Shown here: piece after piece, positions 43,071 to 47,484 of the stretch
Position numbering within the stretch: position 1 is the stretch's first letter
How the letters are laid out: each line of letters begins with the position of its first letter
DNA from: a virus
Virus record (IMG/VR): IMGVR_UViG_3300030380_000566
Span: 1 to 51,883 of that record
Length of the DNA stretch: 51,883 nt
Direction: 5' to 3' (one strand)
Made by a program: the position numbers and the translations under genes
Notes under the pieces: model-generated
Database searches by the model: none
Told to the model about the DNA's origin: nothing
Seen by the model: the letters and a program-made list of their open reading frames with translations, nothing else

Positions 43071-43982
43071 ATGGCAATGAATAGAGCACAATTTGCTAAA
43101 ATGCTAGAGCCAGGATTGAATACCTTATTCGGGCTAGAGTATGCAAGATACCCTGAAGAGTATCAAAAAGTATTTGAATCAAATACTTCTAACAGGGCAT
43201 TTGAAGAGGATGTATTGCTTGAGGGATTCGGTAATGCACCTGTAAAAGGTGAAGGCGCACCTGTAAGTTATGACTCAGCGAGTCAAGGATTTACAGCTAG
43301 ATATCAACATGAAACTATTGCATTAGCTTTTAGTATCACTGAAGAAGCAGAAGAAGATGGACAGTATGGTTCAATTGCTGGTAGGTATACTAAGGCTTTA
43401 GCTAGGTCAATGGCTTCAACTAAAGAAATCAAAGCTGCAAATATTTTAAATAATGCCACATCAGCAGGAGCATTTGCTGGTGGAGATGGTGTTGCTTTAC
43501 TAAGCACTAGTCATCCAACTAGAGCTGGTAACCAAAGTAACACATTAGCAACAGCAGCAGATTTAAGTGAGACATCTCTTGAAACTATGTTAATTAACAT
43601 AGCTGATATGAAAGATGACAGAGGACTAAGAATCGCAGCACAAGGAACAATGTTAATTATTCCTACTGCTTACATTTTTACTGCTCAAAGATTACTTGAG
43701 TCTACTCTAAGAACTGGCACAGCAGACAACGATCTTAATGCAATTAACTCTGGTAATTATTTACCACAAGGGTTTCATGTAATGAGAAGACTGTCTGATA
43801 GTGATGGTTTCTTTATTAAGACAGACGTACCTGACGGACTTAAAATGTTCCAAAGAACTGCCTTGAAAAAAGGTATTGAAGGTGAGTTTGAAACTGGTAA
43901 TGTTCGCTACAAAGTTAGAGAAAGATACAGTTTCGGTTTTACTGACTGGAGAGGAATATTCGGTACCGAAGGTGCTGCTTAA
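43071..43982 (+). CDS. Major capsid protein (Mu gpT-like HK97 fold)
   Basis: The product has 303 residues. It opens MAMNRAQFAKMLEPGLNTLF and contains AFEEDVLLEGFGNAPVKGEG, ETIALAFSITEEAEEDG, and a P-domain-like CKTDVPDG-region read as FIKTDVPDGLKMFQRTALKK. These match Mu-like major head subunits (gpT family, HK97 fold). It should be the main shell protein. A strong hairpin follows its stop. Position after scaffold and decoration genes is standard. Confidence 0.82.
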   Translation: MAMNRAQFAKMLEPGLNTLFGLEYARYPEEYQKVFESNTSNRAFEEDVLLEGFGNAPVKGEGAPVSYDSASQGFTARYQHETIALAFSITEEAEEDGQYGSIAGRYTKALARSMASTKEIKAANILNNATSAGAFAGGDGVALLSTSHPTRAGNQSNTLATAADLSETSLETMLINIADMKDDRGLRIAAQGTMLIIPTAYIFTAQRLLESTLRTGTADNDLNAINSGNYLPQGFHVMRRLSDSDGFFIKTDVPDGLKMFQRTALKKGIEGEFETGNVRYKVRERYSFGFTDWRGIFGTEGAA

Positions 43983-44029: not shown

Positions 44030-46906
44030 ATGGAATTAAACCTAAATAAAAAAGACGGAGCTCTTCCGTCCGCTGAAGAATTAAGCACAGTTAAAAAAAT
44101 TTTTCCAAATAGAGATCCTTTAGAAGCTTATCAATGGTGGGATTCAGTTGGCTTCCCTGTTACAGAGTTAATGAATGCAGTAACACCAGTTGATACACCT
44201 ATAGATGAGTTACCAGAAGGACTAGCTAAATACTATGCTAATAAAAGATTATCAGGCACTGGCATGAGTGGTAGCGAGTTAGCGATGCTACAAAATCAAG
44301 ACAAGCTAGGAGCAATACCAGAATTAATGAATCGTTTTGCTAGAGAAGTTCCTATAGTAGAATTTACACCTGAAGATGCAAAATTTGGAGTATTTGGTGA
44401 TGTATCTTTAGGTAGAGTAAAAACGAAAGCTGAAGATTTTACAGAACAATCAGCACAAAAAACAGCTGATGCTTTTACAGCAGGTTATGGTTTAAAAACT
44501 TTACCTCTTTATGCATTTCCACTCACTGAACCTGTAGCTATAGGCATAGACATATTGGAGGGTATAGCTACAAGAGACCCAATTCAAACAGGTACAGCAG
44601 CATTATTATCACAATCTATGAGCCCTAAGGCTCAAGCTATAATTGCTGGGGCTTCTGTATTTATGCCTTTTGATGCTGAGGCAGTTAAGATAGTTGGTTC
44701 TCCTGAATTATTTAGTGGGGTAGTAGAGAAAATAAAAGGTGCTCCTAGTAAAGTCAGAGGAGAAGAACTCAAACAAAAGCCTGAGAACTGGATGGGTGGT
44801 ATGTTAAAAGGTGGCACTACTCTTAAAATTAACAATATGGAAATACCTATAAAAACTAGTGAAGTTGAAAATATGATGAGGCTTATTAAAAATAATAAGC
44901 TGGACGATAAATTATTGTCTAGGGATGAGATGGTAAAAGTTTTAGAAGACCAATATTATACATCCTTTATATCTGAAAAAACTAGCCCTAATTATTTTAA
45001 TAGGTTAGGCAATATGGAAACTACTAAAATAGAATTACCTAAAGATGGTGATGTACCTAAAGATTTATTAGAAATAGCTAACTATCTAACTAGAGATGCA
45101 GGAGTTCACCATGGCGGTGAACAAGGTATCATAAGCCACTCACTAATTAAAAAAGATACTAATTTTGGTAGTGATATTGATACAAGAACTATTAATTACG
45201 AAATTACAGAGATACAAAGTGACATGGCTTCAGATGCACATAAGTTCGGTATATTCGGTAGTCCTAAAAATAATATGTATCAAGACCTTAAACAGTCTTA
45301 TAAAGATATACGTGGTCGAGCTAAATATTTAAATTTAAGTCCTGCTGGTGGAAAATTACCAGATTTAAATTCAGTATATTTACCTACTAATAGAGATAAA
45401 ATAATAGAAAAGTATGGTGCAGGTGATGCTGTAGGTGGTGGCAATAGAGTAGACAGCTATGCTGCTGCAGTATTTGATAGATATAAAGGTGCATTACAAG
45501 AAGTTGATAGTCTTTATACAGACGAATATTTAGGTAAGCTTTACGACTTATCTACTGATAAATTATTTAAAAATAAATATGAAAAAGATGAATTTATAGA
45601 TCTTACTAGAAAACGCATGAAAGATAGAATAGTCAATAGCTTAGACTCAGGAGAGACTAACGGAGCAAATGTTATACAGTTATTAGACATGACAGCTAGA
45701 GGTTACACAACTTCTCCTAGATCTTTATATAGTTCTGTTTATAATGCTTTACAGAAAAAAGTTAACGACTTACACCCTTCTTATAACAGAGATGATTTTA
45801 ATACTTTAGGATTTAATTCAGAACAAGAAGAAGTATATGATGTATTTAAAAAAGTAGAAGGAGGTATAAAAGACTTTGATACTCTATCAAGGGCTAATCC
45901 TATAAATCAAGGTAGTGTACCAGCTCAAACTCCTTTAATGAAAAATTTAGATTATGTTGAGTTTGAAATAAAAAAGCACCTTGTAAAAGCTGCAAATGAA
46001 GATGCTAGCAAATTTATACTTCCAGGAGAAGAACCTGTAAGATATTGGTCTCAGAGAGGGCAAAATGAACAATTTTTAAATACTATATATAGTTTAGTGC
46101 CTGATAGTAAAAAAGGTTACAAAGGTAAAATAGGTCAAGTTCTAACTAAACTCAGTAAAAAGTACAACATACCTTTTAGGCTAGAAGGTGATGTAGATGT
46201 TAAAAATACAACTATGAACAATATATTTAAAAAAGATTTAAATGGTTTAAGGAATTTATCAGATTTAAGTGGTGAAGATGCTATAAGCACTGTTGATAAT
46301 CCTGGTAATCCTTTAAATGAAATTATGGAATCAACAAACTCTACAATTAAACAAAGAGTTAGAGATTATAAAAGAGATTACATACAAGACTATTACCGAA
46401 GAAATAATATAACAGAAGATGATTTCATGGTTTATGAAGGCAATGCTATCGACGAATTTAATACTTTTGTAAGGGACAACCCTAATGAATTAATAAAAGA
46501 GACTGAGATGTTAGATATTGTTGATTGGGATGGCATAGGTAAAGGTTTTGATGCGATGGCTAAAGGTAGTGAATTTAAAGATGTAAAACTAGCCTCAGAC
46601 ATGCTAATGCAAATATCAGGTAATACTAGAAACATATTTGATTATACTATACAGAATTTAAAAGGTTCAGATGGTTGGAATTTTGGAAATATTCAAAATC
46701 TTGAAGAACTTATGCAAAGTAAATTAAAAGAAGCTATAAAACGAGGTAAACGAGAATTTTTAGATACTCTCCCAACTTCTAAGAAAAATGAGTTATTAGA
46801 AGCAGGAGTTATAGGTTTAGATGAAAATGCTAAATTTGTAGTTGAATTAGATGATGTTCTAAAAGAGCAGATTATTGAACAAGGCTTTCCAATAACTGGT
46901 TTATAA
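44030..46906 (+). CDS. Large polyvalent-type phage protein
   Basis: The product has 958 residues. Residues 250-410 (PENWMGGMLKGGTTLKINNM, a helical LDDKLLSRDEMVKVLEDQYY, HHGGEQGIISHSLI and YEITEIQSDMASDAH) resemble a domain of phage large polyvalent proteins with an 'EIQSD' signature. Residues 155-215 hold hydrophobic stretches. No nuclease or protease motif is certain. No Shine-Dalgarno precedes the ATG, and a strong hairpin lies eight bases upstream, so expression is probably far lower than the capsid gene's. It may be a virion-delivered protein. The function is unknown. Confidence 0.5.
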   Translation: MELNLNKKDGALPSAEELSTVKKIFPNRDPLEAYQWWDSVGFPVTELMNAVTPVDTPIDELPEGLAKYYANKRLSGTGMSGSELAMLQNQDKLGAIPELMNRFAREVPIVEFTPEDAKFGVFGDVSLGRVKTKAEDFTEQSAQKTADAFTAGYGLKTLPLYAFPLTEPVAIGIDILEGIATRDPIQTGTAALLSQSMSPKAQAIIAGASVFMPFDAEAVKIVGSPELFSGVVEKIKGAPSKVRGEELKQKPENWMGGMLKGGTTLKINNMEIPIKTSEVENMMRLIKNNKLDDKLLSRDEMVKVLEDQYYTSFISEKTSPNYFNRLGNMETTKIELPKDGDVPKDLLEIANYLTRDAGVHHGGEQGIISHSLIKKDTNFGSDIDTRTINYEITEIQSDMASDAHKFGIFGSPKNNMYQDLKQSYKDIRGRAKYLNLSPAGGKLPDLNSVYLPTNRDKIIEKYGAGDAVGGGNRVDSYAAAVFDRYKGALQEVDSLYTDEYLGKLYDLSTDKLFKNKYEKDEFIDLTRKRMKDRIVNSLDSGETNGANVIQLLDMTARGYTTSPRSLYSSVYNALQKKVNDLHPSYNRDDFNTLGFNSEQEEVYDVFKKVEGGIKDFDTLSRANPINQGSVPAQTPLMKNLDYVEFEIKKHLVKAANEDASKFILPGEEPVRYWSQRGQNEQFLNTIYSLVPDSKKGYKGKIGQVLTKLSKKYNIPFRLEGDVDVKNTTMNNIFKKDLNGLRNLSDLSGEDAISTVDNPGNPLNEIMESTNSTIKQRVRDYKRDYIQDYYRRNNITEDDFMVYEGNAIDEFNTFVRDNPNELIKETEMLDIVDWDGIGKGFDAMAKGSEFKDVKLASDMLMQISGNTRNIFDYTIQNLKGSDGWNFGNIQNLEELMQSKLKEAIKRGKREFLDTLPTSKKNELLEAGVIGLDENAKFVVELDDVLKEQIIEQGFPITGL

Positions 46907-46922
46907 GGTATAAATAATTATT

Positions 46923-46977
46923 CTGGGAATTTTAAGCTATAAGGACTGTCCCAGCAGACTCTCAAAAGACCTTATAG
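46923..46977 (+). ncRNA. Predicted H-type RNA pseudoknot in 5' leader
   Basis: Two perfect stems interlock. CTGGGA (46923-46928) pairs with TCCCAG (46949-46954), and CTATAAGG (46937-46944), inside that loop, pairs with CCTTATAG (46970-46977), beyond it. Loops are 8, 4 and 15 bases. This leaves T5 and GAGGAGGTC just before the 47002 ATG. I do not recognise a known riboswitch class. Regulation of the virion gene below or ribosome control is plausible. Confidence 0.5.
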
Positions 46978-47001
46978 TAAACCCTTTTTGAGGAGGTCAA
47001 T

Positions 47002-47484
47002 ATGGCTAATACAACTTTTAATGGTCCAGTCCGTTCGGAGAATGGATTTAAAACTATTATAAAAAATTCTACTACTGGTGCAGTTACCAGTGATATGACT
47101 TTATCAACTTACAGCACTTCAATAACTGTTGCTGCTACTGGTACTGACCACAAAGAAACTTCTATAGGCATACCAGCAAACTTTATACCCATGGGTGTAG
47201 CGATAACTGTAACTAGTGCTTCAGCTAATGCAGTTAATGTGGTCGACATAGGCACTGAAGATGATGATGATGGTTTTGTTGATGGTATAACAGCAGCACT
47301 AAACAGCACAGGCTTTAAAGGTTTCTTTCCTTGTAATGGAGTTTTAGGTATGAGTGGTGGTACAACAACTGCTGCTACTGCAACACCTGACGAAGTTCAA
47401 CTTGTAGTTTCTGGCACAGCTGGTGCTGGTGGAGTAGTCGCACTTAAATTTTTTGGTATATCTTCTGATTCGCCAACAACTTAA
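47002..47484 (+). CDS. Virion protein downstream of capsid genes
   Basis: The product has 160 residues and is beta-rich and Thr/Ala/Gly-rich. It opens ANTTFNGPVRSENGFKTIIK and later has GISSDSPTT at the end. I recall 'NGPVRSENGF' starts in marine phage virion proteins next to capsid genes. A strong GAGGAGGTC ribosome-binding site and an upstream structured leader suggest high or regulated expression. A decoration or structural role is inferred. Confidence 0.6.
   Translation: MANTTFNGPVRSENGFKTIIKNSTTGAVTSDMTLSTYSTSITVAATGTDHKETSIGIPANFIPMGVAITVTSASANAVNVVDIGTEDDDDGFVDGITAALNSTGFKGFFPCNGVLGMSGGTTTAATATPDEVQLVVSGTAGAGGVVALKFFGISSDSPTT

Follow-up and report, generated by a model that had tools for sequence, protein, structure and literature searches.

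Comparative sequence analysis confirms the leader of a probable capsid cement gene as the site of a real, evolutionarily conserved H-type pseudoknot, formed by the interlocked stems P1 and X'X. The leader is part of the window, which means the whole stretch of 51,883 nucleotides of viral DNA analysed here. Judged by its core and its genomic place, the RNA is a knotted, previously uncatalogued form of Mu-gpT-DE (Rfam RF03012). It probably acts in cis on the cement gene, as a translational operator.

The leader and the capsid locus

The initial annotation had described two perfect interlocking stems at 46923-46954 and 46937-46977, in a 95-base gap with a T5 run, before the ATG at 47002. The stems were exact on checking the sequence, and the gap is as claimed. 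It extends from 46907 to 47001 and is the leader between a 958-aa ORF (44030-46906) and a 160-aa gene (47002-47484). Stems X'X (6 bp) and P1 (8 bp) interlock in it. A search of the window for second leader copies found none. The annotation had overlooked a third helix (P3), a hairpin-type sister RNA in Rfam at the same locus, Mu-gpT-DE, and the cement-type nature of the downstream gene. The features are as follows.

43071-43982, + strand: Mu-gpT/Phage_capsid_4 major capsid gene, upstream; 79% identical to the CRP-902 major head subunit
46909-46916, + strand: TATAAATA, tentative A+T-rich promoter-like stretch just 5' of the structure; a weak TATAAT match in the window
46923-46928, + strand: X', CTGGGA, upstream strand of stem X'X; pairs with 46949-46954; at least 10 compensated sequence types among relatives
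46929-46936, + strand: L1, linker of 8 nt that spans P1
46937-46944, + strand: P1a, CTATAAGG; perfect pairing with 46970-46977
46945-46946, + strand: core AC; invariant in alignments A1, A2 and A3
46947-46956, + strand: TG-[X]-CA, putative P2 hairpin remnant with the 6-nt loop X
46949-46954, + strand: X, TCCCAG, 3' strand of stem X'X; perfect pairing with X' (46923-46928)
46957-46959, + strand: core GAC; invariant in alignments A1, A2 and A3 and found in 224/224 parsed leaders, GA[C/T] at that position having been demanded by the parser
46960-46967, + strand: loop J, TCTCAAAA, which holds P3a, CUCAA (46961-46965); pairs with the Shine-Dalgarno (SD) flank, with P3 partners that change together across lineages
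46968-46969, + strand: core GA; invariant in the alignments
46970-46977, + strand: P1b, CCTTATAG; perfect pairing with P1a
46985-46989, + strand: T5 run
46988-46992, + strand: P3b, UUGAG, overlapping the first bases of the SD run; a longer pairing over 46985-46993 is possible in the window
46990-46996, + strand: SD sequence GAGGAGG, 5 nt 5' of the ATG at 47002
47002-47484, + strand: gene of the 160-aa cement/decoration-like capsid protein (phrog_36974), directly downstream of the leader

We parsed 224 distinct homologous leaders, 147 of the pseudoknot type and 77 of the hairpin type by an automatic rule; one of them, L051, was reassigned afterwards to the hairpin class. Nearly all have a Mu-gpT-like major capsid gene upstream and a small capsid-cement-like gene downstream. 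Scans with a core-only pattern gave extra loci, nearly all at the same genomic place. The leader directly follows the capsid gene at 92 of the 112 loci that have an upstream ORF. The window is an exception, with its 958-aa ORF between the two. PHROG and Pfam gave no match for this ORF. In other pseudoknot phages (e.g., L284, L307, L311 and L336), ORFs of about 835-880 aa that look unrelated are seen at or near the same point, and the cultured relatives CRP-901/902 are without such an ORF. Two contigs filed as a Euryarchaeota MAG (L276) and a Sphingobacteriales MAG (L277) carry the phage gene and a hairpin-type leader. They are probably phage contigs binned to the wrong organism.

The 160-aa protein has hundreds of homologues in viral contigs. 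Direct cultured relatives of its gene were not found by tblastn. Instead, the cultured context was reached through the capsid neighbour: Roseobacter phages CRP-901/902, DSL-LC04, 023Pt_psg01 and Pelagibacter phages HTVC023P/HTVC027P. No such core was seen in the capsid-downstream gaps of Planktothrix phage Pag-Yong1 and the Alcaligenes and Caulobacter relatives, and the text of the HTVC027P infection transcriptome paper is without leader-level data. The protein is probably a capsid cement or decoration protein. This assignment draws on its position, on the DSL-LC04 counterpart, which is annotated 'cement protein', on a weak Foldseek match, and on the stoichiometry of a comparable podovirus, where capsid and cement proteins are present at 540:540 (PMC9698820). 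The structure model is all-beta (pLDDT 74). Third among its Foldseek matches, and weak, is 7eel_H (E 0.03, prob 0.97), a chain from the asymmetric unit of the Pam1 capsid. A search for sequence relatives of the cement or capsid protein in the PDB gave none that were convincing.

The downstream proteins of L278-L455 share an N-terminal MxxTTFxGPVxS, which is followed by unrelated bodies of 62-331 aa. This pattern suggests that the N-terminal arm is a capsid-docking tag with swappable domains. RNA structure extending into the coding region was rejected as the cause of the conserved N-terminus: codons 4-12 are as variable at their synonymous third bases as other codons, which places the conservation at the protein level.

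Covariation of the interlocked stems

The evidence from the window sequence by itself is modest. The nested fold of the leader has unremarkable stability (z = +0.61), and nested folding energy is uninformative as support for the structure. Of 1000 dinucleotide-shuffled leaders, 4 contained an equally strong H-type pseudoknot, and among 2204 window tiles there were 10 that did. Since this single-sequence case is only fair, relatives were compared, and the comparative data are, in our judgement, the decisive evidence for the pseudoknot.

In 33 leaders including the window, 98.9% of the P1 cells are paired and 8/8 pairs have changed on both sides. The P1 covariation score of this set is 1.063 versus 0.326 +/- 0.030 with shuffled partners, and slid registers give at most 0.191. 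A further 36 leaders have 95.8% paired cells in P1 and 7/8 doubly changed pairs. The 43-leader alignment covers both stems: paired cells make up 98% of P1 and 90% of X'X, and double changes occur in 8/8 and 5/6 pairs, respectively. Combined over these 43 full leaders, X'X and P1 are 94.5% paired, with 13/14 pairs doubly changed and a score of 0.717 versus 0.217 for shuffled partners and at most 0.123 for slid versions. Stem X'X, which is CTGGGA/TCCCAG in the window, occurs in relatives as CTAGG/CCTAG, the flipped CCTAG/CTAGG, ACTATAC/GTATAGT, ACTGTAT/GTACAGT, CCAAGT/ACTTGG, CCGAGC/GCTCGG and TACTGCAC/GTGCAGTA. Partner swaps between leaders abolish the stem pairing. All stems are intact in the 13 nearest copies (L469-L481), which were collected by exact core pattern search. 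L1 varies from 5 to 15 nt in relatives, and the sole outlier, of 30 nt, is the mis-parsed hairpin member L051.

Some caution is due, as part of the leader set was collected through its core and then parsed on the basis of pairing. In the fixed-window swap test, sequences were chosen without pairing. P1 scored 15.3 with its own partner versus 7.3 +/- 0.44 with swapped partners. The result for X was weaker (8.9 versus 6.4 +/- 0.8), because false core hits stayed in the set.

The initial annotation had named related phages as the place to look for compensatory change. Both stems show such changes in many lineages, and related leaders do not break either stem without compensation. Two interlocked helices that covary are therefore present, and the H-type pseudoknot proposed for this virion-gene leader is borne out. 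Chance interlocked complementarity in an A+T-rich gap would agree with the unexceptional nested fold and with the equally high-scoring window tiles. It is refuted by the strong covariation of three helices over many lineages, and its probability is negligible.

Relationship with the hairpin RNA Mu-gpT-DE

The hairpin type (type B) is arranged as P1a-AC-[P2 hairpin]-GAC-J-GA-P1b and matches RF03012. The pseudoknot type (type A), to which the window belongs, is arranged as X'-linker-P1a-AC-TG-X-CA-GAC-J-GA-P1b. The segment from AC to GAC in type A is 10 nt in 146/147 leaders, with TG/CA (126) or GA/TC (16) as flanks, and some type B members, such as L010, have TGC...GCA in P2. In sequence, the type A segment looks like a type B P2 that was trimmed to two pairs, with its loop X paired upstream. 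L271 reads as an intermediate: its P2 forms a hairpin (AGG/CCT), and TAGGG further upstream matches the CCCTA of the hairpin loop. A mixture is seen in L467, Manatee Spring phage ct7L0027, where P2 is a hairpin, yet P3 is at the SD.

The hairpin leaders mostly score 49-72 bits against RF03012, whose gathering threshold is 49 bits; L051 is just under it, at 48. The window lies outside the family by score, with no match even at E 10. None of the pseudoknot leaders L004, L008, L012, L015, L025 and L458-L461 reached the threshold (L015, 11.2 bits). The nested P2 hairpin within P1 is also missing from the window, where P2 is TG/CA around a 6-nt loop that pairs upstream. The core AC...GAC...GA flanked by P1 is present and is invariant in the gap-free pseudoknot alignments; it is also present in the hairpin leaders, a count that is not independent, as AC and GA beside P1 were demanded by the parser. 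The position downstream of a Mu-gpT-like capsid gene is the same.

Mu-gpT-DE thus resembles the window form in its place before a cement-type gene, its core, its single copy and its pairing of J with the initiation region, at the start codon. It differs in that the hairpin is nested, there is no X' strand, and the SD is within P1b. Matches to RF03012, such as L003 2951-3003, extend no further than the third base of the start codon, so P3 is outside the Rfam model. In the accessible part of the literature on Mu-gpT-DE function there is a single mention, an alternative covariation fold for RF03012, with which the P3 of the hairpin form may overlap in part (PMC7657543).

When A/B labels were mapped on a tree of 174 capsid proteins, the label switched at least 12 times, against about 50-60 switches with random labels; some of the 12 may reflect recombination between capsid and leader. 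In this tree a B phage is the sister of the window (A), whose closest capsids all belong to type B. Among 17 near-complete phage records, 11 have type A, 6 have type B and none has both, each with a single copy. This interchange, together with one copy per phage, indicates that A and B are alternatives for one job at one locus. Type A may be a permutation of Mu-gpT-DE by descent.

A third helix and the proposed control of cement synthesis

Across hundreds of aquatic phages, loop J, which lies between GAC and GA, forms P3 through its complementarity to the region where translation starts. The window pairs CUCAA (46961-46965) with UUGAG (46988-46992), and the GAGGAGG run begins within this second strand, at its last three bases. 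Within the window's subgroup, J variants retain CTCAA and lose the P3 extension. Other SD-type P3 pairs, at or beside the SD, are CCTAG/CTAGG, CCTAA/TTAGG, CTTATA/TATAAG, TTGTAGAG/TTCTACAA, GTAGCAG/CTGCTAC, TATTAG/CTAATA and TTCTC/GAGAA. In most other members, GCCA in J is complementary to aUGGC at the start codon. Here J changes with codon 2: GGN is accompanied by CCCA (CCCA/UGGG; L432 and L433), with L403 as an exception (ACCA), and TCN by TAGACA (TAGACA/TGTCTA; L272). Pairing of J-5 with +5 is found in 30/31 leaders versus 25.5 when shuffled (0/500 shuffles). The hairpin-type P3 has six pairs, UAGCCA/UGGCUA. Codon 2 is GCU in 42/44 hairpin-form genes versus 9/65 and 14/38 in the pseudoknot forms, as expected if its third base pairs with J. 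In UUG-start genes, nine leaders pair the entire start codon (UAGCCGA/UUGGCUA).

J scored higher with its own initiation region than with those of others, both in the pseudoknot form (12.5 versus 10.3 +/- 0.34) and in the hairpin form (14.1 versus 12.7 +/- 0.40), and the fixed-window swap test gave 11.6 versus 8.6 +/- 0.5 for P3. P3 is short in many members (4-5 bp), and its position in the UAGUAG/CUACUA group is beside the SD, which it does not cover. In the four-pair start-codon P3, 3/4 pairs seldom vary, so the support there comes from few compensations, with the one exception of L403. Covariation, with compensations at the SD flank and at the start codon, shows P3 as the third helix of the RNA, and the swap tests support it in both architectures. 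Among the L402-L455 leaders, one subgroup presents P3b as a hairpin loop, in a small GUG-[CUACUA]-CAC hairpin just 5' of the SD, so P3 there would be a loop-loop contact. The strand order X' P1a X J P1b P3b corresponds to a kissing-hairpin (ABACBC) topology.

In the operator proposed here, X' pairs with loop X of the minimal P2 hairpin and P1a-P1b closes across it. Loop J, held between X and P1b, pairs with the ribosome-binding region as P3. In the folded state a helix would enclose the SD flank, as in the window and many relatives, or else the start codon, as in most relatives; initiation would thereby be held down or metered. The hairpin sister form would do the same job, but there P1b contains the SD and P3 the start codon. 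P3 is expected to lower translation, perhaps to match cement output to major capsid output, and the window pseudoknot probably controls the amount of cement-like protein made. By analogy with autogenous control, a virion protein of the phage, either capsid or cement, may bind the switch. A virion protein is the first guess for the trigger because the RNA is confined to the capsid-cement locus. The RNA core is conserved, but the cement bodies differ greatly. This speaks against the cement body as the ligand, and the conserved capsid protein would be the better candidate.

A constitutive tuner is also conceivable, in which the fold fixes a low or high cement:capsid ratio without any trigger. The short P3, its varied targets and the interchangeable architectures fit this explanation, to which we assign a limited share of the probability. 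However, a weak SD would suffice for a fixed low rate, and an invariant tertiary-type core in two architectures suggests specific binding.

The initial annotation had offered both ligand sensing and ribosome access as functions. Ribosome-access control gained support from P3, in which the loop pairs with the SD flank or the start codon; for ligand sensing there is no evidence of a small molecule. A riboswitch would bind its ligand at the junction of AC, GAC and GA and use P3 as the expression platform. The combination of an H-type pseudoknot, an invariant core and an SD-sequestering helix is a common riboswitch build, and the core is invariant across hosts. However, every context found was that of a capsid-cement gene in lytic-type phages, and none involved a metabolic gene. 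The strictly conserved unpaired bases (about 7) are few for an aptamer. Furthermore, neither the window nor the pseudoknot leaders match an Rfam riboswitch or other family, in line with the earlier remark that this is not a known riboswitch. We regard a riboswitch as quite unlikely.

Transcription signals raise another explanation. In relatives, a TATAAT-like box is most frequent at 6-8 nt 5' of X' in the pseudoknot form and at 7-9 nt 5' of P1a in the hairpin form, so many transcripts probably begin at the structure. At hairpin-type and many pseudoknot-type loci, a terminator-like hairpin with a T run follows the capsid gene about 30-70 nt upstream of the RNA start, and a -10-like box comes next. 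This order implies that the capsid and cement genes are transcribed separately. In the window, TATAAATA was also considered as a phage-wide T4-type late promoter and rejected, as it is not enriched and its frequency is not above chance. The RNA could be an mRNA 5'-end stability or processing element that takes no part in initiation, its first stem protecting the message against 5'-dependent decay (RppH/RNase E). Transcripts starting at the first stem and the terminator-like hairpins between capsid gene and leader agree with this. Yet it leaves the pairing of P3 with the SD or start codon and the choice of codon 2 unexplained, and several members (L171, L197 and L043) have no room for a promoter. 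Such an element is improbable, if marginally less so than a riboswitch. As the -10 boxes often put the transcript start at the first stem, some leaders may gain 5' stability instead.

The translational operator remains our preferred explanation. A broader version is possible but doubtful. It would be a widespread kissing-hairpin operator class in aquatic phages, a non-circular permutation of Mu-gpT-DE with repeated swaps, in which the SD or start codon is locked and readout of free capsid or cement keeps cement and shell subunits in step. With the operator function, the orphan family RF03012 would gain a testable role, initiation control of a capsid cement gene. The comparison also shows this orphan RNA in a knotted form with permuted strands, which current models do not detect. 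Its carriers include phages of Pelagibacter (HTVC023P/HTVC027P) and Roseobacter (CRP-901/902), marine hosts that are very abundant.

Non-circular permutation of natural RNAs has been documented so far for hammerhead ribozymes, in whose SGC, CSG and GCS forms the helix strands are reordered around a conserved core to give a pseudoknot (PMC10085705). Those RNAs are self-cleaving and experimentally proven, whereas the permutation in the window is deduced from comparative sequence and no cleavage is claimed. In E. coli rpsO, the pseudoknot traps the bound 30S subunit, and its loop is not paired with the SD or start codon. This S15 operator resembles the proposed one in controlling initiation of its own mRNA by a pseudoknot (PMC3014915), but it belongs to a ribosomal gene and has a different fold. 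Viral translational-operator pseudoknots are rare, and the gene 32 leader was perhaps the sole viral pseudoknot in translational autoregulation according to a 2010 review (PMC3014915). The gene 32 leader of T4, T2 and RB69 is likewise a pseudoknot in a phage mRNA leader, upstream of the ribosome-binding site, with translational control, as is proposed for the window. However, it has no sequence relation to the window RNA, and gene 32 encodes the replication SSB. The gene 32 pseudoknot is located about 67 nt from the start codon and makes no pairing of its own with the ribosome-binding site.
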